64,000 nucleotides of DNA, from positions 52,167,762 through 52,231,761 of the forward strand of contig NC_053042.1 of assembly GCF_003473485.1 (NCBI RefSeq). Direction: 5' to 3'. The position numbers were made by a program, and so were the translations under genes. Source of the DNA: Medicago truncatula (taxonomy: Eukaryota > Streptophyta > Magnoliopsida > Fabales > Fabaceae). The notes beneath the pieces were generated by a model that was not told the origin of the DNA, searched no databases, and was given only the letters and a program-made list of their open reading frames with translations. Below are positions 1 through 50,453 of this stretch, in pieces. How positions within the stretch are numbered: position 1 is the stretch's first letter; the number at the start of each line of letters is the position of its first letter.

Positions 1-14
1 TAGAGGCTCTTCAG

Positions 15-251
15 TTGTTGACTCGAAGAAATGAGTTAGAGTTTCATGAATACAGTTCGTTACTGCTAAGGATTACCAGTTTGATCGACTATGCTCCAGA
101 TTTGGTCTTACATCATATATTTCGAGAAGCTAATCTTAGTGCTGATTGGTTGGCAAAATACGGAAACTCTTCCACTATGGGTGTCACGACATGGTCCTCT
201 CCGCCTTCTGAGCTCCTAGATCAGCTGTCTAGGGATTCTTTGGGCACTTAG
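15..251 (+). pseudogene. RNase H-like domain remnant of a LINE-type element
   Basis: An open frame of 78 codons reads like the C-terminal end of the plant RNase H-like (RVT_3) domain carried by LINE-type retroelements and their derivatives: a hydrophobic helix, the segment HHIFREANLSADWLAKYG with the typical 'R-E-x-N-x-x-A-D-x-L-A' signature, then a divergent tail ending in a stop. The N-terminal catalytic part (first Asp, Glu) is not in the window, so this is a fragment running in from the left edge. It could be the last exon of a host RNase H-like gene, but these are usually dead retroelement pieces. The family match is from recognised motifs only. Confidence 0.65.
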
Positions 252-560
252 TTTGTCTTTTGTTCTTTTCCTTTTGATTTTTTCAATTCACCAAAAAAAA
301 AATCAATAGAATTAAAAATTCAAAGAAATTACGAGCCCATTTTTATATTAGATCGGATACTAAATTTTTAGACTAATTCTTAAAAAAAAAAACATTAGGC
401 TAATCGATTTTTAGACCTAATACCAAATTTTTAAAAGGGGTGCATATAAGAAGTTGAAAGGTAAACCTTATCAATTTTTATAAAATATTATATTATCTAT
501 ATTTGAAGGCCTTTAATAGATAAACCTAATACAATTCAGCCGATCCTTTGCTCATTGTTT

Positions 561-936
561 GACCAAACCCTAAAATGTAGAGATACAACAATTTACGGTT
601 AAAAGTTCATTTCTTTCACTCACGCTCTCAACTGTCGACCATCTTCTTGTCTGCAATCCGATAACTAATCAACTTTTATCTAACTAGACCAAACCCTAAA
701 AATTAGAGATACAATATTTTACCTTAGAAGTTCCTTTCTTTCACTCACGCTACCAACTGTCGACCATCTTCTTGTCTGCAATCCGATAACTAATCAACTT
801 TTATCTAATTAGACCAAACCCTAAAAATTAGAGATACAATAATTTACGGTTAGAAGTTCCTTTCTTTCACTCACGCTACCAACTCGTCCGTCTTCCTATC
901 TGCAATCCGGTAACTAATCAACTTCCACCTAATTTA
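561..936. repeat. Three tandem copies of a ~126-bp unit
   Basis: A unit starting GACCAAACCCTAAAA begins at 561, 687 and 812, so the period is 125-126 bp. Copies 2 and 3 are the most alike; copy 3 diverges towards its end. Each copy has an AAACCCTAA motif (a plant telo-box) about 6 bases in, followed by a C/T-rich stretch. No coding potential is seen. From 252 to 560 I see only AT-rich sequence. Confidence 0.85.
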
Positions 937-1795
937 AGAATTATATCTCTTAGTTCTTTTATTTTTATTTTTAACACTGTTATTTTTTTTTTTTGACAAG
1001 AACACCGTTATTGTTCGTTCGTTTTTTTTTTTTTTTTGAGGGACTTATTGTTCGTTCTTGTCTGTTTTTATATTTTGTCATGCATCCTTTTAAATTTTTT
1101 TTTTTCTCTTTTTGTTTTTGTTGCGATGTTTTTATTTTTTTTTATTTTTTTGCTGTAATGTTTAGTATAAGTAGAAATCACAGCTAAATCGTAGCTGAAT
1201 TGCAACATCGCTCAATGTTATTTTTTTCGCCATCTTTAATTCAATCATCATTGGCCATATATGTGGGTGGGTATATCAATAAAAACGTTATTTTGTTGTA
1301 AAAAATCGAAAATTTATTATCACACATAAACGAAAGTTTTTAATTTTTTTTTTTTTGTGGTGCAATGATAATTTTATTCACGTAAAATGTTTCTGTGTAT
1401 TTTTTTTATTGGATTTAATTGATGGATATTGAAAGTGTAAAAAGTTACCAATCATAATCGTGTTGGATCATTAAGTATTGATCTTAAAAATCATACAAAC
1501 TATGGTTTGTGATTGGTCTATTTTTTTATTTTTTCCGCGTTGAAATTGCCTGCCACCATATGCATTGATTCACTTCCATAATTTGTAACTTCGCAATTAT
1601 CATCGCAAGCAAGAGGATGTTGGGACGTATGAAAACATGTAACCAAATGAATACTATTTAGAGTTAAATATACGTTTTATTTAGATCACAAAGTTAATTT
1701 TTTCTATATTACTTTCACTATTAATGTCTGAGCTATGTGATTAATCTCAAAGCTGAAATTTTGTTAGACACTATATCATCATCATTCTTCTGAAA
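937..1795. other. AT-rich intergenic stretch, upstream of the 1796 gene
   Basis: Long T runs (985-995, 1023-1037, 1098-1106, 1346-1356) and AT-rich sequence. The short open frames are low-complexity Phe-rich translations of T runs and are not genes. Nothing else recognisable; the promoter of the gene at 1796 would lie here. Confidence 0.5.
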
Positions 1796-4265
1796 ATGGG
1801 AAAAGCCCAAGTTGCTGCAAATTCTAAGATGGAGAAGAGTTGCAAGAAGACTACTTCTCCAGACAATGTATGTATCTTTTATATTTCTCTTCTTACTCTT
1901 CCTCTACTTATTTCGTTTCTCAGTTGTGTTTATTTGCATTGTTGGAATTTTTGTGTTGTAGAATTGAAGCTGTAGCCATCCTGCAAGTATGATAATAATA
2001 AGTAGGAGTTATTTAAAAAAAAGTATGAGTTATGTTTTCTCTAAACTTGATTAAAGGATCATGCATGCCACAATTTAACTTGAAAATTCAATCATAACAT
2101 AGGAAAAAAGGTATATTATTAGGCAAATTCTATGGTATACCCAATGAATTTGGGTGTATCGGTACACCAAGTCGTAAAATTAATAATAAATCAGTTGTTT
2201 TTTTGAAGAAAAATAATTATTTTCTATCATTGACAACTAAGATAATTAAATTTTATTTACCAAAAGTTTCGACGAAATAAAATTTAATTTTTAAGAATTT
2301 TTATTACTCATAACAATGAATATTGATTATTTTTATGACAAAATGTAATTTTTTTAATATAATCCTTATAAACAATGAAATGATGGTTTTTCTTATGAAA
2401 TGATGTTTTCTAAAATATAAATATTGACAAATACCTTTTTATTTCATTAAAGTGATCGTTAATTTATAAATTTTGTGCAACAAGAGTACCGGTACACTCA
2501 AAATTGTGGGTGTACCATAGAAGTTCCCATATTATTAAACCATGAAAGAATGTGTTGAAGTGATGAGTTTTATTTTAAATAAAAGAAGGAGAAGAGAAAT
2601 AAGAAAGACTTTGAATATTTTTTGGTCAACTAAAATTAAAGACTAACCCCTTAATGTAACTGAGATTTTTTTTTTTTTTTAAGGAATAGAATGAGTGAAT
2701 CTTGAAATTTTCATTTCGGATTTTAAGTTTTTCTCTTAACCCTCAAAAATTCTTTTAGCGTGAAACCAAAAAATGCAATGGGAGAAGAAAAAATCAATCA
2801 ATTAATAGACATTTATTATTTTGTGGTAATGAGTGTTGACTATAATAGAAAATGGAATTAAAGCCTACCATATCAATTAATCTAAGTCATTAATCAAAAT
2901 TGAAATTAAATATCAAGATTTGAAGTAAGTTATTACACTTACTCTTGGAGTCAAAATATCCCCCCTCATAACTTAATATACTAACCTGATAAATAATTTG
3001 GTACAAAATACTAAACATTAATCCCTATTTATAGCGACACGATAATCCTTTTATAGCTCATTGTTGAATCAATGGTGTCTGTAATTTTCTTTGGATCTTG
3101 TTCGCTACTAGATCTAGTGTGTACATGACATAATTAGACCATCACATTTTTACTTCTTAACCCATAGATTATCCATCGAAAGTACGATATTTATGGCTGC
3201 AGTTCAGCCTATATTATCAAACCCATAAATATCTCGTTTTTAATCGAGTCCTGGTAGCTTCTAAATAGATATTATATTCTACATTTTTGTAGTCTTGATT
3301 TGTTGGTACTATTGGTATGATTTGTCTGAAGCCAAGTATTTTGTATGATTTTGGTTCCCTAACAAATCAAAAATATAATTATTTTTCTATATGGCAAATA
3401 GGTTTTCAAATCTTATTTTTCTTTTTGTTCAAATCCTGTTTTAGTTTAATTGCAAGAGAGAGTCTGAAGGTTCTCCTCGGCGTTCAAAACGCTTAGCCGG
3501 AGAAAAACCTGAGCTGACCATCGATGTCACCTCTAAAAGAACTCTAGAATATACAATCAAAAAGACTAGAGCTGCCAATGCAAATTTGCAACAAACAGAA
3601 GCTACAAAAGATACACAATCAGAAGCTACACAATCCTTCGCTTCCCCTCACTCCTCGTCTGACTCATGCTTGGAATCAACAACTAATGAGACTGGCCAAG
3701 AAGTTATGTTGTTTGGGGTTGTCATAGGATTTAGCAGCAACAAAAAGCTTCCACATGGAGTGTCTGAGGTAATGCAAACTGAAAGAGCTCTCATGGTAAT
3801 ATCTGCATTTTCTCTCAAACTCCTTACTCTTTTTTCATATTTGTTGGTTGGTGTACCTTGTTTAAACTTAGTAACATTAAGATCTCTTTACTTGTAGTCT
3901 ACAATATCATAATGTAAAGGCTCATATACAAGTATTGTTTACAATGTTGGTCCCCAAACATATCAGAATACTTATTTTTCGATGAGGCAAATGAGTTTAC
4001 AAATCGTGTTTTCTTTTTGTTCAATGTAGGTATCATCTGCAAATGAAAAGCAGCATATCGAGAACACTACAAGCAACCAACGACCTTTTGTAGGTAAGTA
4101 GTCTTGTATGATTATATTAAGAATTGGATTAGCTGATAAATTGTTTTACAAGTTTTTCCAAAATACAAGGACGAGAAATATGATATTGCATCTAAAATCT
4201 ATTTCTTTCTTGTTATTGCAACCAAAGGCATGTATGATGAAAGCACCAAAGAATCACAGATGTAG
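1796..4265 (+). CDS. Small basic Ser/Thr-rich protein of unknown function (4-exon model, uncertain 3' end)
   Basis: Four exons join in phase with GT-AG borders: 1796-1867, 3445-3795, 4030-4093 and 4228-4265, giving 174 residues. The start lies in a run of Lys-rich codons (MGKAQVAANSKMEKSCKK). Exon 2 carries a basic patch, SPRRSKRLAGEKPEL (about residues 31-45), typical of nuclear or DNA-associated proteins, then a Gln/Thr/Ser-rich linker. I do not recognise the family. The last exon is doubtful. Just past the modelled stop, another frame reads APAPKRSSN, a TGA, then LASKKPVVVSNGRALKHA before TAA, which looks like a second copy of the RSxRLAxKKP patch interrupted by a stop. So the 3' end may be differently spliced, or the gene may be decaying. 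A 407-bp MITE sits in intron 1. Confidence 0.5.
2122..2528. mobile_element. Mutator-type MITE, 407 bp, with perfect 9-bp TSD
   Basis: Inverted ends GGCAAATTCTATGGTATACCC (left, one base truncated here by choice of boundary) and, on the other strand, GGGAACTTCTATGGTACACC (right). The direct repeat ATATTATTA flanks it exactly at 2113-2121 and 2529-2537, the 9-bp TSD length of Mutator-like elements. It is non-coding and sits in intron 1 of the gene at 1796. Confidence 0.85.
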
Positions 4266-4926
4266 CAGTGTCTTCTGAATTGATGGTTGCTCCTGCTCCA
4301 AAGCGGTCCTCAAACTGACTTGCTAGCAAGAAACCGGTTGTCGTGTCTAACGGAAGAGCACTCAAGCATGCATAAAAATCATGCATTGAGATATTTGGGA
4401 CTACATTGGTGGATTTTTATATACTTTATAGGCTAAACTGACGGACTTTATATAGTTTAAGGACTATTTAATATATTTTATAATGTAGGGATTAAATTGA
4501 AGAGTGATAGTTTAGAGATTAAATTGATGGTTTATTCTTGAATTATACAGTAATCTATAATGAATTCTTAAATTATGCAGTAATCTACGACGAATGATGA
4601 TGATATCTCGAGCAACTTCCCTCCTTCGGTTAGTATTGCTCGGCATTTGGTTCCTAATAATTTTCTAATCTTGGATTAATGGGTCCAATAACAAATAGTA
4701 ACAAACGACACTAATATTCACACCCAAAACAACACAAAAATTGCTTTAACAAAATGCTTCTCCATTAAATTACATCTTCCGAGACTAAATGACTCGTGGA
4801 GAATAATTATAGGAAACAAGAAAATATACCAATACCATGATCCGGCAGACTATGTCCAATAACAAATTGTAAAAAAGTTATGCATGTCACTTAAAACTTT
4901 ATTGGAAAATTGGAAGACAAAAAAGA
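4266..4926. other. Intergenic region between convergent genes
   Basis: Contains coding-like remnants of the upstream gene's second basic motif up to about 4374, then AT-rich sequence and the 3' flank of the minus-strand GH95 gene. No other feature seen. Confidence 0.5.
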
Positions 4927-7900
4927 TTAAAGATTCACCTCATTAAGGGGGTATGTTTTAATACACCTCAACCAATTATTATACGAGTAAACTTTGCCTG
5001 GTGATAAATTTGTCACGACCATGCTCCCTTTATAATGTAGTCTCATTTTGGAATTCTGGTTTTGACACCAAAGGCCAACTTCATGCAAATTTCCTTCTTT
5101 CCAACAGATGTTGACCGTAACACCGCCACGCGCTTTTAATCCTTTCACACAACCATTTGCCCATTTATCACGAGGTAATGCAGGAAGTAAGTAGAGGTCC
5201 TTTGTTGTGCTCTGAACAAGCATTTCTGCAATTGCAGATGAAAAACTGACACCAAACAATGATGATTTTCTCAGCGAAACTAATTCAAAATTATGAGCAC
5301 AATTGCCTAGTTTCATCACATGCAAGATATCTAAGTGAACATATTTCAGCTCAAGTTTTCATACGATGAAAGTGAAACCAACAAGATACACAAACAATAC
5401 CGTTAAAGATGAGACTTACCCAAAGTTTGCATCAATTTGGAAAGGAGGATGTGCTGTGAACAGGTTACTATAAAGTCCTCCTTCGAAATCTTTTTCACGC
5501 TCAGGGTCCACCAATATAATCAAATGTTTTATCATGCGATACGCATGCTCACTGTTATGGAGATGAGCCCACAATGCAGCTTTCCAAGTTGTTGACCACC
5601 CAGGACCTTCGTCTCCTGTAACACAATGCAAGAATGAAGATTACTGTTGAATTAATTTCCAGTACTAAAGCTGAAAAATACAGCCTTATCTCATTCTGGC
5701 ATACAAGGTTGTACATGACCATGGTAATACTTAATTTGAGAATGCAATATAATTGTTGTGATAATCTTCTACATTACCAGAGGTATTCACACATACAATA
5801 ACTTAATATTTTCCCTAAAAAAAAAAAATTAACTATTCAAAACCAACATATATAGTTCCATTACGCTACAAAATATATAACTAAAATAACTATTTTGTCG
5901 TGAAAAAAACAAGTTCAGTATTTAAAGCTCGCGTAAAATACCTCTTTTAATTAGACTATAATCCACAGCTTTACAGAGATCTGGAGTTTTCTCAAGATTT
6001 ATTGTGTGCCCCGGAAACAAACCAAACAGATGTGAAACATGCCGATGATGTACATCTGGGTCCTGGAAATCTTCAGCCTGTCAAATAAATAAGGTGTTAA
6101 ATTCAACATGGAATTCCTATTCTATTCTACCGTCCAAACAATTTCATTGAAAATGAACAAGATATTATATGACATAAGTTGGACAAATTGACACTTGAGA
6201 GATGAAGAGAAGGAAAGCAAATATTGAATATGATTGCATACCCATTCCATAATGGACCCATCCCTAGCAATTTTTGTAGGAGGAAGCTTGGACTGAGACT
6301 CAATTACTCTTTTGATAATAGCATCATCATGTTTTCCCAAAACCTGTTTTTGACAAACTCAGTGACCAAGATAAAAATAGATAACTAGAAACCGGTATCT
6401 AGTATTGGTTTGAGAACTAAGATCAGTTCACCTCAGCAGCAGAAACGACTATAGAGAAAACTTCTTTTATGATTGAAATGTCCATGGTTGATGAGTAGCT
6501 CACACTAGCTTGCTTTTGATCTGGTGCAATGAACATGTGCTCTGGTGAAGTTGATGGGTTAGTTTCCAATAATCCACCAGGGCCTTTGATCAACCAATCC
6601 AACAAAAATAATGTACATCCTTCCAGCAAAGGATATGCTTTACTTTTAAGAAATTCCTATAATAAAAGAAAAATCAACTATCACTTCACTGAGCCAATAA
6701 CCGGTATTTGGTGTGTGAGTAATAGCACAAAGCATAGAGCAAATCTAATTTATGAGTACATTACTATTATTTGCAAATAAAATAATGCATATAGTATTTT
6801 TTTTTGAAAGAATAATGCATATAGTATGTATCATCATAATATATTAGAATTTTCATCCCTCAACAGGTTGTATGCCTTAACTGTTGCATATGTATATAAT
6901 CTTGAAGGTTTGTTGATAACAGCAGTAAATAAGTTGACCATTATACTCATAAAATGAAACATGAAGTTAATTATACTATTAATAATCATAGCTAAACAAG
7001 GTATTTGTTGGACTAATACCAGTTTGACATCTCATTTTGTAAGTTAAACATAATAACCAAAAATTGCTCAAAGGGGGTTATATTTCCATCATCTCTAGTA
7101 CAACTTATAGCAATGCCATGGAAATTGAAGGTTAATTTGGCATGTATGGAATATTTAGCTCTTCGAGGTAAACTTGATAGATCCTCCTTTAGCAATAAAG
7201 TTGTTTCTACAAGATTAATTTTGAGACAATCATATAAGGCTCGGATAGTTTATTAAAAAACTTGAACTTACCTTGTCCATTGTATAACTGTAATGCTCCC
7301 ATAGATGGGTACAAAGCCAAGCTCCACCCATCGGCCATAAAGCCCAAACAGCCTCACCTCGATCTGGCGATGTTTTAGCCCATAAGTCAGAAACTTGATG
7401 TGCAACCCAACCATTTGCTTCATAGTTCACCTGCATGCCAGATCAAATGAAATTATGTATAGAATATATAAGAGTTACAACATGGTGGTACAAAGTTATG
7501 ATAGGTACTGACAGATATGAATAACTAATGGGTGGAATATAGTAATAATATTGGTAATATAATTCACACTGCTCCAGGGATAACTTCCTGCAGAGTTGGT
7601 TTCATGAAGCAGAGAGAAATACAAACTGCTGTATCCTAATAAATAATTGATGGAAACTAACACAACCTCTGGGAATTACTCTGCCAACCTACCCCAAACA
7701 TAAACTACCCAATTGCAGTTCCATTCCTATCATTATTCTGTTTGAAACACACACAATTACACTAAATTGGGAATAATTACTTGGGCTTGCGCCTCACATA
7801 CACTTGATTAATAAGAGGTTTACTAACAAGTTACTGATATCTGACAAGCATAATTATAAATGATCCTTTTCTTACATAGAATGTCAAAACTTATAGGAAA

Positions 7901-10343
7901 GAGTAAACAAGCAAAATACCTTTGCAGTTTTACTACCGGCGACAGACAAAGAGGAAATATAATCAAATAATGGCTCTTGACACTCATGTAGGTTGCAAGA
8001 AAGAGATGGCCAATAATTCATTTGAAGATTTATGTTCAAGTGCTGAGCCCCACTGGAAGACAAAAAAAAAGAGATTACAAAATCTCACAAATTCTTTAAG
8101 AAATTACTTCTAGGTCTTTATTCCATACTCCTTATCCATATAGAAACTTTAATCCTTATGATCTAGAAACTGTTGAATCAAATTTCTTTACTTTGTTTTT
8201 ACATATTTATTCATTGCTAGAGAAAGGATGAAAAGAGAAGGGAAAACATACTCCCATGCAGGTGCAACTTTATTGTTCCATATACCCTGTAGGTTTGCCA
8301 CCTGAGTTCCAGGACGTGAACAAGCAATTAGCAGATATCGACCATATTGAAACAAAAGTTCCACAAAGGAAGGATCTTCATCATTTTGAAACGAATTGAC
8401 TCTCGATGAAGTTGGAACAGCAGAATCACCTCCCAATTGAGAGATGTTAGTTTGACCAGAAACCAATTTTTCATCCAAAATAGGTTTTCCTAAAACCGTC
8501 TTGGAACTTTTAGAGAGTTGCAATGAGACCCGATGAAATAGATTCTGATAGTCATCCAAGTGACGTGCGTAAATATCATCATATGAAAAGCTTTTTGCAG
8601 ATTTCATTTTACTCAAGGACTCAGTAGTAGGATCCTTCTTTGAGTCTTCAGGATTAGTAAATGGACCATCAAAGGACGAGGAAGCTGTCAGAAGCAAAAT
8701 AGCCCAATCTGAACCTTCAACTCTAAACTTCTTGTCGTCTAAAACATGTATAACACCTTTGTCATTACTAATCTGCATATCAAGAACTGCACAAAACTGA
8801 ATTCCTTTTTGTTCACCACTTGAATTCATTTGTGGCGCGATCCTTTTGCCAGGACAACTTCCTTCCATTATTATCTGATTTTGGCCGCTTACCCGCGAAT
8901 TGTGATGTAACTCGCTATCCAAAGATACTGTAAATGATAATGAACCCGACTTGCTTGTGGAAAACTTTGTCGCTAGCACTTGGTCCGGTTTAGAAGCAAA
9001 ATGCTCTCTGGTAAATTCTATATCACCTACATTGTACTTTATTTTTGCTGTAGCACTATCCAAATCGAGCTCCTTGTGATAAGATTCTTCCGAATATTTA
9101 ATATGAGAATCGTCGAACTCTAATTTAATATCGCCAAGAAGTTGGTATACCTTCATAGAAAAAGAAAGAAGTAGTTATGACTATACAAGGTTCCTTAACT
9201 CATGCACCAACACATTTTAAGGAGTGGAATGGGGCGAGGGAGTAAAAAATCCATGAATGAGAACACTAGTAAACTGAAAGCATGTGATTTATATCATAGA
9301 AAATAGCTACTACTTGGATTCCTCTGTTTATATATCACGTTCCTTGGTTTTCAACCCCTAACATTATTAGTCTAATAAATTGAATAGTTGCTCATAAATT
9401 ACAGTAAGGGTTATATCAATTTATAGTGCGTTACATACTTCAGAAGGAGCTCCTGACAATTTGACAGCAGCTGTTGTAGCTTCAGGATATTTTTTGTCAT
9501 CAACAAGTTTTCGGACTTCAGCCAGCACTTCAGGAGCATTTTTGTCGGTGTAGTTGCCAGGTATCCCAGTCCATAGCGTGTCGTCTATGAAAAACAATTG
9601 AATCCTCGTGTTAGTATGTTTTAAATGAGAAAGACTGATAGACATATCTAATTGTTTGGCTATGGGAAATGCAGCATGAACTTGCCTCTGATATGATTAT
9701 AAATATAAATTTGCAAGTAGAAATGCCTATAGTACTATGATCCCCTTTATGCAAAAGTTGAACTTGCAGTACACAAAAAAGATCCTAAACGAACTACAAA
9801 ATGATTGATGTTAAATTTAGTACAGAACAGTCTTCCCTTCAAATCGGAAGTATCTACAAGTGATGTGTCTCTCAGTTATTGTCCGAAATAACAATTGACA
9901 GAGTCGAAAAGAAAATCAAGCAATACCACAGTCTACAACCTCTGCTGCTCTTGTTAATTAAAGTTTCTAGCAACAAATGGCAACAAGAAGGAACCTTCTA
10001 ATCGATCGTTAAATTGTTTACTACCATGAAGTATGACATTGATTTCACATTTGGATAAAAATAAAGAGAAAATCTGAAAGATTGGAACGGAAAACAAAAA
10101 AAAAAATGAAAGGTTGACTGATTTACCATTGAGCTGGAGAAGTTCAGTTTGAACACCACCCCAAACCATGGCACCAAGACGACCATTTCCAATGGGGATA
10201 GCATCAGTCCAATACTTTGCAGGCGCAGAAAAAGTAAGTTTCAAGGGTCTTGAAGGTTCATTATCAGCAGCATTTGGTGAACTTGGGTTCCATAAGTCTT
10301 TCTGTGAGGGGCTGCGTACCAGAACCCAATCTCCATCTTCCAT
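4927..10343 (-). CDS. FUC95A: Alpha-L-fucosidase 2-like, glycoside hydrolase family 95
   Basis: Ten exons join in phase with GT-AG borders: 10343-10127, 9584-9439, 9150-8252, 8052-7920, 7430-7272, 6656-6432, 6343-6242, 6077-5942, 5615-5420 and 5245-4927. The product is 843 residues, as I recall for Arabidopsis AXY8/FUC95A, which removes alpha-1,2-fucose from xyloglucan in the cell wall. Landmarks: the N-terminal [22 protein letters not shown] near 410, [11 protein letters not shown] with Asn427 and Asn429, TNPSTSPEH with Glu557, and FQIDANFG with Asp734. By motif these four correspond to the catalytic Asn, Asn, Glu and Asp of bifidobacterial GH95. No stop or frameshift interrupts the model. 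The start MEDGDW has no obvious signal peptide, although the family is reported to act in the apoplast. A 5' partial tandem copy lies upstream at 12371-16440. Confidence 0.93.
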
Positions 10344-10579
10344 TGTTGAGAAAAGAGAGTGAGATGAATTTGGAAGAATGAATGAAAGAGTCGGTGAAAG
10401 TGAAGTGAACAAAGTAACGTGATAGTTGTGTACTAGTTTGTAGAAGTAGGTGGTTTTAGCTTGAATGGGAGACACAAAAACATTTTTGTTGTAACTATTT
10501 ATGTTTTGAGGGCCCCACATCGTCCTCATTTACCTCACGGAACAATTAAGAAAAAGAGGTATTTATATATTTTAATTTT

Positions 10580-10920
10580 GAGTTATGATACATAGACACT
10601 GGCAATACACCCTGGACATCCACACAAAAATCTGACATGTGGTCACGTGGATCCCGCACAAGCACATTTTCTATTTTCTCACCTCTTCTCTCTTCCTAGT
10701 ATATAGGGTGTATAAAAGTTGGGTAATGATACATAAATCACCTTAGGTGGCATATACCACTTGTACATCCATATATAATTGTGACATCTGTCCATGTGGT
10801 CCCTACGCACACAAGAAACTCATCTTTTGTGTCTCTCAAACACTATCACATGGAAGTGGTACAATGTATGTATAGAGAAAATGGTGTTCATGAAACATTA
10901 TCTATAAAAGTTTATGAAAA
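10580..10920. mobile_element. Two adjacent related MITE copies
   Basis: Two neighbouring units share 'tgatacat..', 'acatccacac/atat..' and 'tgacat.tgt..' blocks. The second (about 10725-10899) has inverted ends ATGATACATAAATCACC and, on the other strand, ATGTTTCATGAACACC, flanked by TA. The first (about 10580-10724) is similar at its left part only. A third relative is at 20141-20332. They lie just upstream of the fucosidase gene, in its probable promoter region. Confidence 0.6.
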
Positions 10921-12370
10921 TAAAGGGTATTTACGTAACATTTTCCTTTACTTTTATCTTATAAATCATCAATCATTCACGTGCAACACTGTCATTTTCA
11001 TTAAGGCCTCATTTTCAAGATACATTTTAATAATAAATTAACATGCATAAAAAGTGTTTCAGTTATGTCTTTTTTTTTTTTTGTTAACATCTCTCAAAGG
11101 ATAAAAATGACGATTTATCTTCTACTTGGCAGTAATAATCTTATGACAGAAAGTTTTGTAGACCAATATTCATTTGCCAGAATAACTTGAGATTTTTCTT
11201 TACTTTGCACACAAGCTGTTTGATAGAATGTCTACTTCATAGATCACTAAATTCTCACCAATATTGGTATGAACCTAGGAGTCAGGTTTGATTTATTGAT
11301 CGCGTGGCAAAATAACTAAGGTGTTTTATTCATGATTGATACTATACAATTTGTTAAGACTTTTACTCCTATATGATCAATGCATAATGAAATCTTTTCC
11401 AGATCTTTCAGGTATATGTCTTGAAACTTGAAAGTTAGAAGTGTTGGTGCCAATGAAGAGAAGCAATACCCAGACACCAAAACTATTGTGGAACCAACAA
11501 ATGGTTCATCTGGTAAGTAAATTATGTTTTAGTTCCAAAGAAAATAATGGAATGTTTGAATTAAGTATTTTTACATTAAAGTTGTAGTTTCTTGATTTCA
11601 CATTAACGTTGGATTCTTCTTAAAAGCATTTTTCATGCCAATTTTCATTATGTTAAATGATGGTATTCTTTGCTGAGTTGAAAGGTTAGTATTTCTGTAT
11701 ATAAGGATGGATGCTTATGTGATTGTGGAAAAGAGTACTTATACTATAGCTTTATAAGGGTCTCCGGCATACAATTGATTTTAACATGTTTGAGTATTCT
11801 TCGGTATAATTGATTTTGCATCCAGAATTGATTATAACTCGAAGTTAGAATTTGAAACTTTTGCCTTCCAAATTGATTCTTTTATTGAATATTGGAAACC
11901 TTTCAGATTATAGGAAAAGAAAGCATAATATATTGGAAAACAATTAGTTGCTCTCCAATATTTGTTTTTTCAGAAGAAGAAAAAAAGTTATTTCATATTA
12001 TTAAAATATAGTATCAAACATAGATAAACATAACCTTGAATATGACAACTTGTTATAGATATGACCACCATACTAGAGAACGACACCAAATTAGAACACA
12101 TCTTAATTATGATTTTGATACTATCCACTACCAACTTAAAATCAAATTAAAAAATTACATGATCCATTTCTGCGACCCACCCCAATTTCAACGCAAATAG
12201 GAGAGTTCAAGCATTTCCTTCATGAACCAGTAGGAGTGTCTGATGTGAGTTTGTCAATGCTTGAACAAGATGCCCTGAACCGTCCCTGGAGCACCTTCTA
12301 TCCCATGGCAAGGGTTATCAAACTTTGAGTTTTCTATTTTTGGATTGAAAAGGATGCGTAATTTAAAAAC
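10921..12370. other. Intergenic region with two exon-like pieces (+)
   Basis: Mostly AT-rich. Two short plus-strand pieces look codon-like. One, 11440-11512, reads VGANEEKQYPDTKTIVEP and ends at a good donor (TG|GTAAGT). The other, about 12205-12328, reads FKHFLHEPVGVSDVSLSMLE and onward to a TGA. I cannot assign either to a family or join them into a gene; they may be remnants. No other gene seen. Confidence 0.3.
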
Positions 12371-13998
12371 TTAGGCGGGGTTTGTGCAATTTTACGAAGG
12401 AACTGCAACGTAATTGATGGTAAATTAAGTACACAACACTGTCTTCTCTTCACATCAAAGTATCTAAGAGTGTTACTCAGTCGTTGTCCCAAATAACCAT
12501 TAACATGACATTGCACAAAAGAAAATCAAGCAATACCAGTCTAATATTTCCAATACCCTTGTTAGTTAAAGTTTCTAGCAGCAATATGCAGCTCATATAG
12601 ACAGCAACATTGTATTGTATCAACCAAAGACTACAAGAAGAAAGCTTCTACTGTCACAAACTAAAGAAAGAAGTGGCTGATTGATTTACCATTGAGCTGT
12701 AGTTTTTCTGATGGTACACAACCCCAAATCATGGCCCCAAGACGGCCATTGCCGATGGGGATGGCATCGACCCAGTACTCTGCAGGCTCAGAAAAAGTAA
12801 CCTTCAATGGCCTTGGAGTTTCATCATCAGCATTTGGTAAACTTGACGGGGCCAGACAAAAAAGTTTGGGATGGCCGCCATCAAAATAAACTAAAATATA
12901 TAAATCATATTGTTTACAACACACTTAAGTTGTAATAAACATAAAGTCAATTATGATGTTGTATTCAATAACGGCAATTTCATATATGGAATCATGTAGT
13001 CGGATTAGAGATAGAACAGAGAGCATTTCAAATAGGAAATCACCTAAATGCAAAGAATAAAGCTAGAGTAAACGGTGATATCACCCCTTGTCCAAATAGG
13101 AAAACCTCGCCCAATCTCCACTAACATAAAGAGCAGCTACCAGGACACCAAGATAGCACATAAAGAAACAAATCCTTAACTGTCTTACTGCACTTGAATT
13201 GCTCCTAGGAGAGACAAAAACAAACACGATAAGCCCTCCATCTCAATTTTGAAACAACCAAAATATCGACCACAAATCTAAGCTACACAACAACCAAACT
13301 CCAGAAGATTCTATCATTCGGAAGCTGCTAATAATCACCACACAGTCCAAAAGCAAAAAAACCAAAACAGAATACTACCAAAAATGCTGCAAACCCAACA
13401 CACTGATGAGATATGACACAAAACCAAGAGAAATAACAAAAGAAATGCATTAGAAACTAGGGAACATATACAACCATTGATTGCTAGCTAAGAATCCATC
13501 CAATCTAGCTTTTATGTGATGAAAATATCCCCAATATAGCCCAAACCAGTTAAGCCACACTGTTGGATAGTGTCTTTGAACCGGTTTGTAATACTACTGT
13601 CAGCAAGATTACCTCCATTTTTTTTTTCAGCTTGACCCAAAATCAAATCGAAATCACCAAAAACTAACAACCTATTTCTAGAATTATCCCTGTATATCTG
13701 ACTAAAAAGATCACAAGCAAGTTATTAAAAAAAAGCACATTGTCTAAGAACACAAAACAAAGAGTAGTAAACAATCCATAATAATTAGAATCAAGCTAAG
13801 AATTAGAGCTGTTAGTAAAAAATTGATCAATTAACCCTCATATTAGTAAAAAATCCATCTGATAATACAAGAAAAACATGAGATAGAATTAGAGCTGTTA
13901 GTCACTGAGTCACATAAGATTCTGATTCCTCAAATTAACCCTCACTTTAGCAAATTAAAAAGGGAAAAATTAAGCCAGAATTAGAAACAATTAAAATT

Positions 13999-15664
13999 GG
14001 CTTAATTAAACCTTTGGTCCTCTAACTTATTTGTTGTTTTCATTTTGGTCCCATAACTTTAAAATTTTCCTTTTTGGTCCCTCAAATATGCTCCGTCAGT
14101 CAAATTGATCCAAGTCTGTTAACTTTTAACTCCAAATGTCTATGGTGGACCAACATTATAATGGTCCACCGTAGATCTTATTAATTTTGTTAATTTTGAC
14201 CCCTTGATTTTTTTATCATAAAGGAGACCATTAGATCATGTAGATCCATTATATCTTATGATGTACCGTCTATAACAAATTTATTTACCAATCCTTCTTC
14301 TTCTTCCTCCCTAATCGCCATATCATATTCATCATCATATCATCTTAAGATCTAAACCCAGAAATCATAAAACATAAATCTATCAAAATCCACAAATCAG
14401 TAATCACAAAACACACATAAAAGCTTTCTCTTTCATACACACTGCAATTTCTAAGATTCAAAATTTTCCCTTTCAAAATCAAAATCCATAAAAGCTTTCC
14501 CTTACATCTGACAACAATCGAAATCCATAAAAACTTTCCCTTTCACGCGTATAACCCATACACTTCTTGAATTCACCCAAATCCCTAATCGCTCATGGAT
14601 TTCTATCAACCTTTTAACCTCAGATTGACGCCTCATATTAAACCCATATTCAATTCTCCAGCTGCATTCACAAAACCGCTTCCCATGTTAAAAGAAGTAG
14701 GTGGAGTTTGGCTTAGATCTGGAAAGGCATATGGTTGCTGAGCCATTATTGGTCCACCACTCTTGTCATTCTGAGATGCAGTAGTTGAAAGTGCATAACC
14801 AATGGCAGCGGGACTGAAATTTGGAAATTTTTGCTTAATTAGCGCAACAAGACCTGTAATATGTCGCGTCTCCCTTTTTGTTTTTGATTTGGATTCAACT
14901 TTTGATTTAGATACAAGGTTTGTATTTTGTTGTTGATTTTGAGTTGGATTCTTCATCTTTTGTGTTTCATGATTGATTCTGCGTTTGGATTTAATCTAAG
15001 AAGGAGAAGTTTGGGATGTTGTTGATTTGGATTTTGTAGATTATGAATTAACTATTTGGATTTGATGGAAATTGTTTCTGTTTTTTTTCTTCTTCTGAAT
15101 TTCTTTGAATGTTGGATGAATATACGATGATAATGATGAATAAGAAGAGGGAGGCTGGGTTTGAAGATGAACATGAAGGGAGCAATTAAATTGAATTGAA
15201 AAGAAAAGGGTGGCTGAGATTTTAATTCAAGAAGTGTATGGATTTTTAATTCAAGAAGCTTATTTTTTTCGTTTGATATCAATATGCAATAAATTGAATT
15301 GAAATCCATAAGTTGAAGATGATGAAATCTATAAATTTGAGATTTAAGTGAAGGATTCGATCAATTCTAGCATTTTTTGAGTTTTGTTGTTAATTTTTTT
15401 TTGGGTTTATGTGAATAAAATGTTGAAGATGATGAAGATCAAGAATAGATTGAAGGAGATGAATAAAAGTCAAAAGATTAGGTGTTGATGGTTCACCATT
15501 AGAAACAATAGACAAGCAATCAAACGGTTAAAATTACATCATGAAAATTATGCATTTAAAGACTAACGGTGAGGACTACGAGGGACCAAATTGGAAAAAT
15601 TTAGAGTTATGAGACCAAATTGAAAACAACAAATAAGTTGAGGGACTAAACGTTTAATTAAGCC
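13999..15664. mobile_element. Pack-MULE, 1666 bp, with perfect 9-bp TSD
   Basis: Long terminal inverted repeats begin GGCTTAATTAAACCTTTGG (left) and GGCTTAATTAAACGTTTAG (right, other strand). They continue well matched for some 70 bp through TTATTTGTTGTTTTCA. ATTAAAATT flanks the element exactly at 13990-13998 and 15665-15673, the 9-bp TSD of Mutator-like elements. No transposase is present. Instead the interior holds a fragment of a subtilase gene on the minus strand (14863-14633). A related element with similar termini is at 48970-50453. Confidence 0.9.
14633..14863 (-). pseudogene. Captured subtilisin-like protease fragment
   Basis: Within the Pack-MULE a minus-strand frame of 107 codons (start 14956) contains, from residue 32, HITGLVALIKQKFPNFSPAA, then ALSTTAS, GGPIMAQQPYAFPDLSQ and FNMGSGFVNAAGELNMGLI. 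This is the segment just after the catalytic GTSMAxPH motif of plant subtilases and looks closest to the SBT2 group. The catalytic Ser motif itself is not present (the residues before HITG read TKRETR), and the frame ends at LI where the family continues. It is a piece of one exon region, not a protease. Confidence 0.85.
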
Positions 15665-16440
15665 ATTAAAATTTATTCATGGGTATAATGGAATTAAGCC
15701 CTTTTGCTTTCAACAAACGAAATAATGGAAGCAAGGGTTCAAGTTTCCTACAATTGAATCAAACAACAATGGAAATAAAGGGTTCAAGTTTCCCCCAATT
15801 TTTTATTAACATAGAATAATTTCATACCAATGTTGAATTGAACCAAACGATAATTTTAAAGAACAAATTATTAGCAGACAATAACAACAACAACAACAAA
15901 CCAACACATTGATTCTAAAATCGAAATGAAAAAAGGGAAATCAAATGTTGAGATTGAAAAAAATAACTTACAATTAGAGTTTTTGGTTGTGTAACGGACG
16001 AAGAGAGATGGATAGAGAGAGAAGATGAATAAGTATCAGGTGAGCTTCAACAGAGATGGAGGGCGTCGCTGCGCCGGATTAGTCCAGAGAGAAGAAGGGT
16101 GAACTTGGGTGGTCATCGCCAGAGTAGAGAGATGAGTGCGTTTCAAGAAAACTGAAGGTGGCATGGTTGTAAATTTCATATTAACTCAAGGGTATTTTGG
16201 TAATTTTCCACAAATAATGGGACGATCATGGCCATCCCCTGTCCCCACGTGGTTCCGCCACTGTGTGGAGGGCTATGCACCATAACCCATTCTCCATTTT
16301 CCATTGACAGAAAAGAAAATGATAGTGAGATGAATTGGAAAGGAATAGAATGGTGTAACAGAAAAAATAATCAAAGTGATGGTTGTCACTCTTAGATTTT
16401 TCAAGCTCAAGTAGGTGATTTTAGCTTGAAATGGACCACA

Positions 16441-18587: not shown

Positions 18588-19060
18588 GAGAGTAGTGAAT
18601 TTAAACCTCCCAACTTAACATTAAACGTCAACATTATCACTTTTTAATTGAGTTCGATTAAAACATGATAATGATGCAGATATTCTATAACTTAAAACAA
18701 TTTATTAAAAAAAAAAACTTTATGACTAACTTGTTGTAAACTTCTAACTCAAATGATATATTTTGTTTATGTAAAGTTAGTTGTGGCTGACCAAAACCAA
18801 AATTAGAGGATTTATGCAATTCTCACTTTCTCATTTCTTCTCAAAATTAGAGGATTCTACTGTTCATCTTATTCCTCTTAATTCTACTTATCTTCTTCTT
18901 TTAATTTCGTCTCCAAAACCAAAAATTGTTACATACGGCCACACTGTTGCTGGTGTGAGATTTGCAAATACTTGAATACCTTCTCGTATAGCTGAAGCAG
19001 TTCTTTCTCTAGCTTAAAATGTTTCTTGTATTTATCCCATTTATAGCTTTATTGATTAAA

Positions 19061-19531
19061 GGCTTAAATGCTTTTTTGGTTCCTTAAGTATTTAATTGGT
19101 ATCGCTCCGGTCCCTTAACTAAAAAAAAGATTGTTTGAGTACTTTAAGTTTTTTTTTAAGTCTCGTTTTGGTCCCTTCTGTTAGATTTCCGTTAGGTTTA
19201 ATAAAAAATGTTTAGTGTGGGCACGTGTCACCTTGTCATTGGCTCTAAGAATATTTTTTTTATAAAAAAAAATATTTTTCATTTTTTTTATAAAAACATA
19301 TTTTTCATTTTTTTTAAATATATATTTTTTTTTAAAAAAAAACTCAGCCAATGACAAGGTGACACGTGTCCAGGAGTTAACTTTTTTTTTTAAACCCTAA
19401 CGGAAACCTAATAGAAGGGACCAAAACGAGACTAAAAAAAACTTAAATACTCAAACAATCTTTTTTTTTAGTTAAGGGATCAAAGCGATACCAATTAAAT
19501 ACTTAAGGAACCAAAAGAGCATTTAAGTTTA
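19061..19531. mobile_element. Foldback (long inverted repeat) element, ~470 bp
   Basis: Almost the entire element is two complementary arms of about 200 bp around an A/T-only centre (about 19255-19340). The arms share 'ggttccttaagtatttaattggtatcg', split here by position, and 'caatgacaaggtgacacgtg' near the centre. GATTAAA flanks both ends (19054-19060, 19532-19538). The termini (GGCTTAAATG) resemble the MULE termini GGCTTAATT in this window, so it is probably a Mutator-derived foldback MITE. Transcribed through, it would form a long hairpin. Confidence 0.8.
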
Positions 19532-20140
19532 GATTAAACAAAACGATTTATATAAATCAAAGAGAGAGGAAAAAAAAAGTAACAAATATGAAATTGATAA
19601 GGTAAGCACCCTCCAATGAAACCAAGAAGAACGTCATCAGATTGCTTAGCAATAGAAAGGGTATCAACCACATACGGAAAATACTTGGGTGACATAGAGT
19701 TGGGTGACATTTGTGACATTGGTCAATCATAATACCACAATGTTTGTGTTTCTCTCTCTTTCACAAGCATGGTAACATTGTGATTGGTCAATGTCACCAA
19801 CTCTATGTCACCCAAGTGCTACCCCATCAACATACATGTAGAGGGACTCTAGTGGCTTCAAGTGCAGCTCCACCCAATAGCTTCTTTGGGAATTGCAGTA
19901 GCGACAAGTCCAAACTAATTCCACTTTATGAAAAGTTAATTCGACGGAAATGGCTACCTTGACTAACAAGTTTAAGTTTGAGAACTAAAACGGAACAAAA
20001 TATATTTATGGGAACAAAGTGAAACCACAAAATAAATTAAGAGATCAGTGTAATTTAACCCTTTTAATATAGTAAAATCAAATACTTCGGCTCCCTTATT
20101 ATATCCCAAAAACAAATCAAATACATACAACTTCAAAAAT

Positions 20141-40555: not shown

Positions 40556-40841
40556 CTTGTTCTTGAAAATTCATAGAGTAATACGTAAGGAATAGAAAAT
40601 AGCAACAAAATCCCATCCCGTTACGTATCAGAGCACCTAAGACACACGAGAGAGAAACATCACACGACATCAACTATTCTTGGTTACCTGCAAGTTACCT
40701 TGTTCTTGAAAATTCATAGAGTAATACGTAAGGAATAGAAAATAGCAACAAAATCCCATCCCGTTACGTATCAGAGCACCTAAGACACACGAGAGAGAAA
40801 CATCACACGACATCAACTATTCTTGGTTACCTGCAAGTTAC
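40556..40841. repeat. Exact tandem duplication of 143 bp
   Basis: The segment starting CTTGTTCTTGAAAATTCATA at 40556 repeats at 40699 with no difference I can see over 143 bp. The unit contains TACGTAAGGAATAG and ACACACGAGAGAGAAAC. Such perfect identity in an otherwise decayed area points to a recent duplication, or to an assembly artefact. Confidence 0.9.
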
Positions 40842-45207: not shown

Positions 45208-45927
45208 TTAATCAAGGGATGAATAAATTATGTAATAGTATCTTTATATTAATGTAAGAATAAGCGACGTTTTGTCGTTATATCTATGTAAGTTTGTATG
45301 ATATTCTAAATAATTCAAACTTATATGAGTTAATTTATGATCTATAAAAAAGAAAACGTATGGCTTACACTGTAATATTATTATTTTATACATGATGAGA
45401 AAATAGAACTTTTAAAAAATAATCATTGGGAAAATAATTTTAATATTAGAGTGAATCAAATATAAGGCAATAGTTCCATAAAAAAAATGCATTAGACAGT
45501 AGTAAAGGTGAGAAACGTATGCCTCTTGTTTTTCTTGTTTTTATTTTTATTTTGAAGGGCGTATGTGTCATGTTTTATTGAGCTTGAGCAAACAACCAAA
45601 TTACAAGTCTTCTTTAGTGTAACGACATTATAAGACTTGACGGTATATTGGATCATGATTCTAAGGAATTTTAAAAGACTTTTTATCATAAAAAAGTTTT
45701 GCAGTATTCAATCAAGACTCTTTCCAATTTAAAAAAAGTCTTGTGTTATTCAATCAAGATTTTTTGTCATTTAAAAAAATTCATGTGGTATTTAATCAAA
45801 ACTCTTAATCACTTAAAAAAAGTCTTGTGATATTCAAAATCATTCAAATTTTGAAAGATTGTTTAATAAATCAGTTTTTGATGGATTTTGTGGGATTTTC
45901 TAGTGAAATTTTAACATGAAAAAGTCT

Positions 45928-46243
45928 TGGCAAGATTACACTTTTAGTCCCTTAACTTAATTTCAGTTAACAGTTTGGTCCTTTATCTTTTTTTCATTTC
46001 AATTTGATCCTTTTTGTCCATTTTTATATACATTTTCAATCTTCAAATCTAATATTTTTATGCAAACATAGATGAGGATCATAGATTTGAAGATTGAAAG
46101 ACCATAAGAAAATAAAATCATGAATTTTAAGCTTAAAAATTCATATGAAAATGGACAAAAAAGACCAAATTGAAATGAAAAAAAGATAAATACCAAACTG
46201 TTATCTGAAATTAAGTTAAGGAATTAAAAGTGTAATTTTGCCA
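45928..46243. mobile_element. Inverted-repeat MITE, 316 bp
   Basis: Ends TGGCAAGATTACACTTTTAG (left) and TGGCAAAATTACACTTTTAA (right, other strand) continue as complementary arms ('tcccttaactta', 'gtttggtcc', 'tttcaatttgatcc'). AAAGTCT flanks exactly (45921-45927, 46244-46250). Non-coding. 45208-45927 is the protease 3' flank, with nothing else seen. Confidence 0.75.
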
Positions 46244-48960
46244 AAAGTCTTTCATGAAAACATGAGATTTGTTAGGATTGGTTTTTTCTTTTAAGATTTT
46301 ACTCCCTCTCCCTCCCTCTCTCTCCCTCTCTCTCTCTCTAGCTCTCCCGTAAAAAATAAAGTAAAATAAATAAGAGAGTCTTTTTTGAGATTTTGTGAAA
46401 GAGAATGTGTTATGATATTTTTCAATTATTAATTAAAATCTGTTGAAATCTCTTGAAATCCATAAAATCATTTCAAATCCTTTAAAATCTTATGAATTAA
46501 ATCTATTGAAATTCTTAATAGTCTTTTAAAATCATCAAAATCCTGCAAAATCTTTTAAAATCCTCAAGTCATTTTTAAACAAAAATTATCCTTTAAAATC
46601 CTAATCCAATACACCCTCCTACATTTATTATCAATAAAACAAATTTAGTGATCAAATCGACTAATGAAAAAGATATTTGTTGATGTATTTACCATTTAAA
46701 TACATTTAAAAATTTATACTTATCAGGCCTCACATATTCAGGGTTTAAAATTGTGGTTTACTCTATTTTATTTCATGAGTGCTGATGATTTATGGTGTAT
46801 ATAATATAATTTCCTCTTGCCGACAATACTATATTCGGCAATCACCACAAAACAAAAAAAAAAAACACTATATTTGGCAACCAGCATTCATTCTTTGTTG
46901 TAAATTCTTGACTTTGACTTCAAGTCAACCTCGTAATCACCCGGGAGCATTATAAAATTTATTTCAATAAAACACCATTAATCGCTTTACTATCTAACAT
47001 TTCCCCAATTTGATCTTTTAAGTTTTACTATAAAAATATACAAACTACTCCCAGTTATATAAATTCCATCAATTCTCCTTCAAAAAAAAAATCCATTAAT
47101 TTATTGTAAAAAAAAATATAAATTCCATCAATTTAATTTTAGTATATTTTTAATAATTTTTGGATTAAATTAAAGAGAGAGCGATACTTTAGAAACTAGA
47201 TTGACGAATAATTCAAATTTGTTTCAAGGAAAAATTTCAAACTTTCTAGGCTTTTTTTTAAACGAAATGACCAAATTATTAAGATTAACAAAGAGCATCT
47301 AGAAGAATTTATGTCAACCAACTTTTTTTATAATCATTAAATGTATCATTTTGTTTATAGACAAAATTTAGATGTATTTTCTTAGGTGTTTTCGTACGGT
47401 TCTTAACTTAACTATCCATGATTTTCTTAAATCTATAATTATTTTTAAGTTTGTTATAACAAAAAAAAAATAGTTAAGAACCATACAAAAATACTTGAGG
47501 AAATGCACATAAATTTTATCCTTTTTTTATTTATAGACGGAGCGACAAATATCGGCTGAACTAGATGACTAAAAAATGTCTAACCTAGTAATTTTGGCAT
47601 TAACATACGACCTCATGAACTTAAATGCATTTTGAGTTTGAATAGTTTTTTGGGATGGACCAAATGGTTATAAGTTATGACACACATGATATACAGGTAC
47701 TGTAGATTAAATAAGCAAAATTTATTGTTGGTTTAGTTGTAAGGTGATCAATGCTTGCGCAAGGATGATGATACACAAATTGAGAAATTGTCCAAATTTT
47801 AACACCATAAAAAAGAAAAAAAACATTTTTACATTCTTTTCGGAACATTGTAGTTTGAGATTTAGAATACTTGTCATGTCTAATAGTTGCTTTTATTAAA
47901 TTTCTTTATTAATGTTTGCAAACCGTGGGTGGATTCATAACTTAGGTTGTTTTTTTATCCGATAGTTAATCATAGTTATCCATGCAAGCTTAATTGTCGG
48001 TTCATTGATTAGTTTTGCGATCAAATTAAGCATGAGTAGAACCATGAGAAAGTGAATTTGTCTTTTGTAATCATAAGGTTTGGCTTGTTTAAATGTGAAG
48101 ACCAAGGTTTGAATCATATTTTCAAACGTTTTGTTTTAAAATATATTTCACCGTCAACTACTTTAGACATGTTAATACACTACTTTGTAAGTTAATATTT
48201 TCAATTATCAAAAGTAGATTTTTTTTTAAATATTTTGAAAATGTGTATATCAAAACAAATTGAATATTTTATATTACATACTAACATTTATATTTATAAT
48301 ATTAATTAAAAATATGGTCAAAGTAAATCATGTAAATAATGTACATTGCAAAAATGCAATATCTATTTTGAAACAGAGTGTAAAGTTTTGCGTAATTTTT
48401 GGCTGGTTGAAGAAGAAAAAAACAAATGAAAAATTTAAAATGTTACAAGAAAGACTCAATCTTTTGTAAAAAAAAAAAAAGGACTCGATCTTCTCTCCTA
48501 TTAGGAGGAGAAAGACAACTTAACCATTGTATTATATTCGGTTCAGAGCGAAGAATCCTTCCAGTTCTTGTATGCCCAATGGATTTTTCGACGGTGAAAA
48601 CTCTAAACATATATTATATTAAGATAAATTCTTAATTATCCTGAAATTTGGTTGAGTATCAATACTCTATAGGTAAAACTCAATAAAAAATTTGATTTGA
48701 TTTTTAAATTAATTAACTTAAAAATATGAAATGACATTGAATAATTGAATGATTAATACATATTCAACCAAACTTTAAGGGGCCGGTCGTTTGATGATTA
48801 TGGTATGTAGAAAGGATATGATATATTTATCATATCTTGCTTAAATTTCATGTTTGATGCATCAAAAAGATATGATAAAATAAACAATTTTCATATTTTA
48901 TACTGACTCGCTTGATAACTTTGTTAGAAACTATCCTAATAGGATTAAAATTTTATTTCT
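46244..48960. other. Gene-free AT-rich region
   Basis: Contains a C/T tract (46303-46343), a hairpin-like pair of arms (about 47369-47412 with 47471-47520; 'cggttcttaactta' complementary to 'tagttaagaacc') forming a possible MITE of about 160 bp, and a truncated MITE end at 48780 ('ggggccggtcgtttgatg'). No coding frame is credible. Confidence 0.5.
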
Positions 48961-48969
48961 TATTTATTA

Positions 48970-50453
48970 GGCTTAATTGGATTTTTGGTCCCCTAAGTAA
49001 TTTGTTGTTTACATTTTGGTCCCATAACTCGTAAAATTAACATTTTGGTCCCTTAACGTTTGCTGTGTTAATCAAAAAGGTCCCTAATTGTTAACTTTAA
49101 CTCCAAATGTCTATGGTCGACCAACTTTAAGAGTGGTCCACCATAGATCTTATCAATTATTTTAATTTAAACTGTTTGATCTTTTTTTTAAATGATGACC
49201 ATTGGATTATGCAAGTGTATTTTATCTTCCGGTGAGTCAATAACAACTAATTAATTTTTCTTTTCTTCATCTTCTTCCTCACTCTTGTTCATCATCTTCA
49301 ACATCACATTTATCAACACCATCATCATCTTCATCATTTACCCAGAAACATCAACCATGAACAACTACAACATCATCACCGTTGATTTCTATCAATTCCT
49401 AACCCCACTAATTCAATTAAAACTCATCACCATTATCAAACACACGGTCAGTTTAAGGAAAAGAAGGGAAATTTCAAAATTCAGTCCCACTCCCAAATTA
49501 TTAACAACCCCAAATTTTCCTTACGTTCAATCCAAAATCTGAATCATGAAACATAGATGAAAAAACCAAATCAAAATCAATAACAAAATCCAAACCCAGT
49601 ATTGTCCCACAACAACAAAATGCAAATTCAGTATTGTTTAATTTTAATTTAAACAAGGAAAAAAAAGTCAAATATAATGCAATGTTGTTCTATAAGACGG
49701 AAACCAATCCTTCCTCTACAAACTCTCGCCACCACCGTTCTCACACAACCACCGGCGTTGTCAAACAACCACCGACGTTTTTTTCCATCTCTAAACACCT
49801 TTTTGGATCTGGGTATGAAAGAAAGAATGAGGAAAGTAAATATGGGTTTGGGCATGGGAGCTGGAACCAAGAATCTGGATATGAGTATAATTATGGTGGG
49901 ATAGAAACTTGGTGGTGTTTAAATAAGAAAGTGAGAAATAAGGAAATTGTATGATGAAGAAGCAAAAAATACCATTAAGTAATTGATTAGAGTTAGAGTG
50001 GGGTCTGAAGCAAACAAGGAAGGAAGGATAGAGTGTATGCTTTGAGATTTTGGTTCGGTGAGAGAAGAAAAGGATGGTGGTTTGGTGGATGAGTCTGGAG
50101 AGGACATGGTGGTGTGGTTTGGTGGGTGGTTTTGGAGAGGATGAGTGGGTTTAGAGAGATCTGGAATAAATGACGGTGTTATGAAGATTACGTTGAAGAA
50201 GATGAATAAAAAGAAGAGAGAAGATGATGAAAAGTGAAAATAATTAGGTGTTGACGGTTCACTATTAAATACAATGGACATGCAATCTAATGGTTTAAAA
50301 TCAAATCAAAAGTTTTAGATATTAAAAAACTAACGGATGGGACCAAATTGACTAACGGAGAAAAATAAGAGGGACTAAAATGTTGATTTTACGAGTTATG
50401 GGACCAAAATGTAAACAACAAATTACTTGGGGGACCAAAAGTCCAATTAAGCC
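48970..50453. mobile_element. Mutator-like element, 1484 bp, 9-bp TSD
   Basis: Ends GGCTTAATTGGATTTTTGG (left) and GGCTTAATTGGACTTTTGG (right, other strand) continue as long inverted repeats (TTTGTTGTTTACATTTTGG). Flanks TATTTATTA (48961-48969) and CATTTATTA (50454-50462) match at 8 of 9 positions. It shares termini and subterminal sequence ('aactccaaatgtctatgg') with the Pack-MULE at 13999, so the two are one family. The interior has several overlapping open frames on both strands (49634-49954 +, 50281-49919 -). None is recognisable, and they may be captured sequence. Confidence 0.88.

Follow-up and report, generated by a model that had tools for sequence, protein, structure and literature searches.

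In the window, i.e. the whole stretch of 64,000 nucleotides of Medicago truncatula DNA analyzed here, the segment 13999-15664 can with high confidence be assigned to the Pack-MULEs, i.e. non-autonomous Mutator-like transposons, as one that took up a copy of 228 bp from a subtilase exon and has since moved along with this cargo. Support comes from the terminal inverted repeats (TIRs), exact 9-bp target site duplications (TSDs) at two unlinked copies, the donor exon, two empty sites and the nesting of the element in a hAT-like element. The locus is a clear yet ordinary case of a known phenomenon, gene-fragment capture by a Mutator-type transposon. Its features are as follows.

12397-12845, minus strand: fucosidase-like copy, with exon 2 at 12397-12584 and the 3' part of exon 1 at 12656-12845, from matches to the neighbouring gene
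12846-16263, no strand assigned: hAT-like element holding the Pack-MULE, from its C7 paralogue; left end eroded, boundary approximate
13990-13998, no strand assigned: left TSD, ATTAAAATT, exact repeat, single in two element-less paralogues
13999-15664, no strand assigned: Pack-MULE, 1666 bp, from TIRs, TSD and a further copy, on C7, flanked by a TSD of its own
13999-14083, plus strand: left TIR (pair 13998-14083 / 15580-15665, 86 nt, 87%)
14633-14956, minus strand: chimeric frame of 107 codons, counted from the first ATG, with a leader derived from the MULE plus the subtilase piece, within frame 14633-14995
14637-14864, minus strand: captured 228-bp piece of a single subtilase exon, 93.4% ungapped match to C2:20565988-20566215
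15580-15664, minus strand: right TIR (same pair as the left TIR)
15665-15673, no strand assigned: right TSD, ATTAAAATT, exact repeat
16264-16430, minus strand: split fucosidase-like copy, 5' part of exon 1 and upstream sequence, 70% match to 10303-10465

Insertion borders and empty sites

The original prediction described a 1666-bp element with an exact 9-bp TSD, and both were found. ATTAAAATT stands unchanged on either side of 13999-15664, as read from the sequence and also as reported by an end-finding script. The element starts with GGCTTAATTAAACC, and its other end is the inverted complement of this start with one change in 22 bases. The TIRs, expected to be about 70 bp long, are present and slightly longer, with arms of 86 bp at 87% complementarity. 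Allowing up to three mismatches, the 22-base TIR pattern matched the window four times, and the mean over 100 shuffles was 0.00; these matches are both ends of the element and both ends of 48970-50453. Genome-wide, five matches at zero mismatches contrasted with none for the reversed control. As had been expected, the element encloses no transposase: all five listed stop-to-stop frames of at least 60 residues were without a Pfam transposase match, and their sole Pfam matches were sub-cutoff ones on the subtilase frame. A 9-bp TSD, TIRs, a host gene fragment and an interior free of transposase, the marks of a Pack-MULE, are found together.

The segment 48970-50453 is itself a second MULE of 1484 bp with a related TIR and a 9-bp TSD with one mismatch (TATTTATTA/CATTTATTA); two of its frames were scanned and gave no Pfam match. 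The window also holds a 143-bp tandem repeat at 40556-40841, with two copies of 100% identity, and MITE-like inverted repeats of 86 nt at 19043-19547 and 45908-46263, with spacers of 333 and 184 nt.

The right-hand flank of the element is found again at C7:39398738-39399321 (88%) and C1:54994058-54994626 (83%), which of 42 matches rank best after the window itself. Neither paralogue contains the MULE, and in both the target is single, as GTTAAAATT on C7 (one change) and as GTAAAAATT on C1 (two changes). The flanks align save for small indels, including one of 11 bases that in the C7 paralogue lies immediately to the left of the site. These empty sites are direct evidence of insertion. The same arrangement in related species without inverted repeats and TSD had been named as an observation that would speak against the prediction; this objection failed, and the paralogues have a single target, as insertion predicts.

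The Pack-MULE had further been placed inside a hAT-like insertion. The C7 paralogue of this surrounding element has CAGTGGCGG ends (CAGTGGCGGAGCC and GGCTCCGCCACTG) and the 8-bp TSD ATAACATG on both sides; such an end motif and an 8-bp TSD are marks of hAT elements. The window copy has kept its right end, which stops at 16263, and its left end is altered near 12846; no 8-bp TSD was found at this locus. Short TIRs with an 8-bp TSD are hence seen in the C7 paralogue and not in the window copy, so that the nesting stands by the paralogue and the outer TSD at the locus does not. An attempt to define the hAT ends from the window alone had failed (best local alignment score of 20, no 8-bp repeat), which the comparison with the C7 paralogue explains. 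A small deletion removing the left TSD would account for the missing repeat. The one frame of the hAT-like element that was scanned (13512-13721) gave no Pfam match. Within this element, 13368-13636 is absent from the C7 paralogue, and the pieces flanking it match at 94-95%. In C7:39398650-39400700, read on the reverse strand, ATAACATG followed by CAGTGGCGGAGC occurs twice within bases 316-366, 34 bases apart, at the left end of the C7 hAT paralogue; this end may have been duplicated in part.

That the hAT-like element splits a fucosidase-like gene copy was confirmed, as the match to the intact copy breaks off and resumes at 16264. The exon pieces 12397-12584 and 12656-12845 match 9788-9976 and 10094-10285 of the intact neighbour at 75% and 79%, and 17 exon bases (10286-10302 in the intact copy) are without counterpart in the split copy. 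Besides the two exons and the overlap itself, 10530-12899 had no further match to 1-10600, and the split copy therefore looks truncated. The name fucosidase rests on the original prediction and on the Pfam family Glyco_hyd_65N_2, which matches the copy with an E value of 1.8e-13.

The captured exon fragment

A minus-strand subtilase piece beginning just after the catalytic Ser had been predicted, and the capture indeed starts five residues past the catalytic Ser of GTSMAAP (GTS-MAAP-H); it ends at NPGLI. Similarity scores for the minus-strand frame 14633-14995 were weak. Pfam Peptidase_S8 just missed its cutoff of 21.8 bits (21.2 bits, E 2e-4), Cac1_C was also below cutoff (E 0.0039), and plant subtilases in the PDB matched with E values of 1.9e-4 (7eox), 0.0015 (3i6s) and 0.0092 (3vta). 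The doubt left by these scores is settled by a donor exon on another chromosome, C2, that matches over 228 bp, ungapped, at 93.4% DNA identity; a spurious subtilase match, a finding that would have told against the prediction, is ruled out. Of the span 14600-14960 proposed as subtilase, 14637-14864 holds and the remainder is not subtilase. Both breakpoints lie inside one donor exon, which rules out a captured intron, the other point to be checked at the donor locus. The junctions show only a handful of matching bases.

Searching the source genome at protein level gave 25 matches, led by the two full copies and the loci on C2 (C2:20565987-20566253, 76%) and C8 (C8:41150976-41151227, 65%). Seven minus-strand frames were scanned at the C2 locus: one matched Inhibitor_I9, three Peptidase_S8 and one fn3_6, arranged in subtilase order, and two had no family. 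From this domain order we take the locus for a complete subtilase gene, presumably of SBT2 type. The donor fragment has a G+C content of 0.447, the captured fragment one of 0.408 and the remainder of the element one of 0.313.

In both full copies, the 107-codon chimeric frame has stayed open. Between captured fragment and donor, dN is 0.068 and dS 0.080. With the C8 paralogue as outgroup, the 15 differences comprise 11 non-synonymous and one synonymous change on the element branch, no non-synonymous and one synonymous change on the donor branch, and two changes not assigned to a branch. In 20000 random placements of 15 changes, the subtilase part stayed open in a fraction of 0.675. Given dN and dS, the branch counts and this chance of staying open, the open frame cannot be taken to indicate selection. 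Such changes are typical of a fragment free of constraint whose donor is constrained, and those after capture look neutral.

Copies and relatives in the genome

A second full copy was matched at C7:51561874-51563558 and extends two bases further to its own exact 9-bp TSD, TAAAATGAC. It has the same junctions and the same subtilase fragment, and hence at least one transposition took place after the capture. Aligned to the window copy over 1663 bases, it shows 26 mismatches and 25 gap columns; 21 of these columns represent one insertion and two arise from an alignment slice two bases short; one change falls within the final two bases, at the extended end. Plant substitution rates lie near 1e-8 per site per year, and from this rate we roughly estimate that the two copies separated somewhat under a million years ago. 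Since the first genome search scored 40 of 1430 candidates, any family size is a lower bound. Of 24 regions submitted to automatic end-finding, 15 had paired inverted ends plus a 9-bp TSD (10 exact, five with one mismatch) and nine gave nothing; the script misses real cases, as the C7 full copy is among its blanks although its TSD can be read by alignment.

Four related elements without subtilase lie at C1:22.517 Mb, C8:34.340 Mb, C5:2.180 Mb and C8:2.296 Mb. They are 89.5-92.4% alike over 1512-1611 bases, and the script found an exact 9-bp TSD in three of them; the C5 relative has lost part of one end. Inside, they match the Pack-MULE at element positions 296-499 (74-91% to 96%, by piece) and 939-1209 (75-78%), and they hold different sequence at the position of the cargo. 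Their terminal sequences match the Pack-MULE at 69-76% over the outer part, and their ends read GGCTTAATACATC where the Pack-MULE has GGCTTAATTAAAC, so that they are relatives and not the direct parent. Given the differing ends and the other sequence at the cargo place, they are not simple pre-capture parents either.

Smaller modules of the element are common to many other MULEs. The leader 14865-14956 had 24 genome matches, made up of the two full copies, the four relatives and 18 others. In 13 of 14 examined among these 18, the match also takes in the element's terminal or subterminal part (in L043 only from base 25 on), and these regions therefore look like other MULEs. Region L044 matches 878-961 only, and no clear gene was seen there. 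The leader as a second captured gene is thus unsupported. Just past the end of one MULE, L037:1543-2766, a frame on the plus strand at L037:2915-3205 (about C7:49634414-49634704) has a reverse transcriptase-like RVT_3 match with an E value of 2.5e-6.

Discussion

The capture may have proceeded by DNA-based copying, through gap repair or template switching within the MULE. A MURA-type transposase encoded at another genomic site would have acted in trans to move the element, and the captured piece would since have drifted neutrally. Pack-MULEs are non-autonomous MULEs with genes or gene fragments, TSDs of 9-11 bp and TIRs of typically 100-500 bp (PMC3310237). TIRs of 86 bp, although above the 50-bp minimum of a screen in that work, are below this typical range and count against the assignment, as do the four relatives with their different ends and other sequence at the cargo position.

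The subtilase piece might have entered an existing MULE by another route than MULE capture, e.g. as filler at a DNA break that had nothing to do with transposition. The relatives, with MULE interior on both sides of the cargo place and other sequence between, and the few matching bases at the junctions would be compatible with this. We consider it unlikely, yet give it some weight because the related elements turned out not to be simple pre-capture parents. As both full copies have the same junctions, such an addition preceded the last transposition, and the element would still be a Pack-MULE; the difference is one of enzymology only, which PMC8277862 calls unsettled. That a pseudogene fragment lies between inverted and direct repeats by chance, with no transposon involved, is vanishingly improbable. 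An A+T-rich region does raise the number of chance matches, but the shuffle expectation for the 22-mer is zero to two decimals, and the second copy with a different exact TSD and the two empty sites already refute this reading.

Finally, the element could be a chimeric gene or regulator, i.e. its TIRs could drive the 107-codon protein, or its RNA could pair with the donor mRNA and lead to small-RNA silencing. Transcripts, if there are any, would be sense or antisense to the protease gene, as the original prediction suggested. The frame is open in both copies, and TIR promoters can express Pack-MULE interiors (PMC3310237). Exact 21-mers shared with the donor number 38 in the window copy and 59 in the C7 copy, and with the former, small RNAs are possible. 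Against this, the captured codons show no constraint and an open frame is what chance leads one to expect. We hold such a gene or regulator to be very unlikely, and it is similarly improbable that the frame or its small RNA is expressed and modulates the C2 subtilase gene; if true, the element would be a transposon-made trans-regulator of a protease gene. Most likely, the Pack-MULE has no present function beyond being carried.

The Pack-MULE at 13999-15664 leaves the current view of these elements unchanged. It offers a well-resolved capture, with donor exon, cargo-less relatives, post-capture transposition and empty sites all in one genome, and contributes a clean example from plants to a process already known, as well as a locus for testing capture models across accessions. 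Among the matches listed, no title of the Pack-MULE and Mutator-like literature named a subtilase Pack-MULE, and one may still be in print.

Pack-MULE tallies stand at 220 in tomato, 2853 in rice, 276 in maize and 46 in Arabidopsis (PMC3310237). Like those elements, e.g. tomato PM-ZIBP, the one described here is non-autonomous, with TIRs, a gene fragment, 9-bp A+T-rich TSDs and more than one copy moved after capture. Unlike them, as far as that work describes them, it holds a single piece of a subtilase exon between 86-bp TIRs, one per end, and was found in two copies. The origin of Pack-TIR-type elements remains perplexing, and multicopy ones moved post-capture (PMC8277862). With the animal Pack-TIRs of that work our element has in common that a TIR transposon encloses a duplicate of host sequence and becomes multicopy by transposition after capture; it differs in being a plant MULE with its donor on another chromosome. 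For the MULE-derived putative genes of Oryza, G+C-rich and lowly methylated parents were described (PMC4858842). In contrast to these genes, our frame is putative and shows no constraint, and like them it is a chimera of MULE and captured frame in which the captured piece is the G+C-richer part (0.408 vs 0.313).
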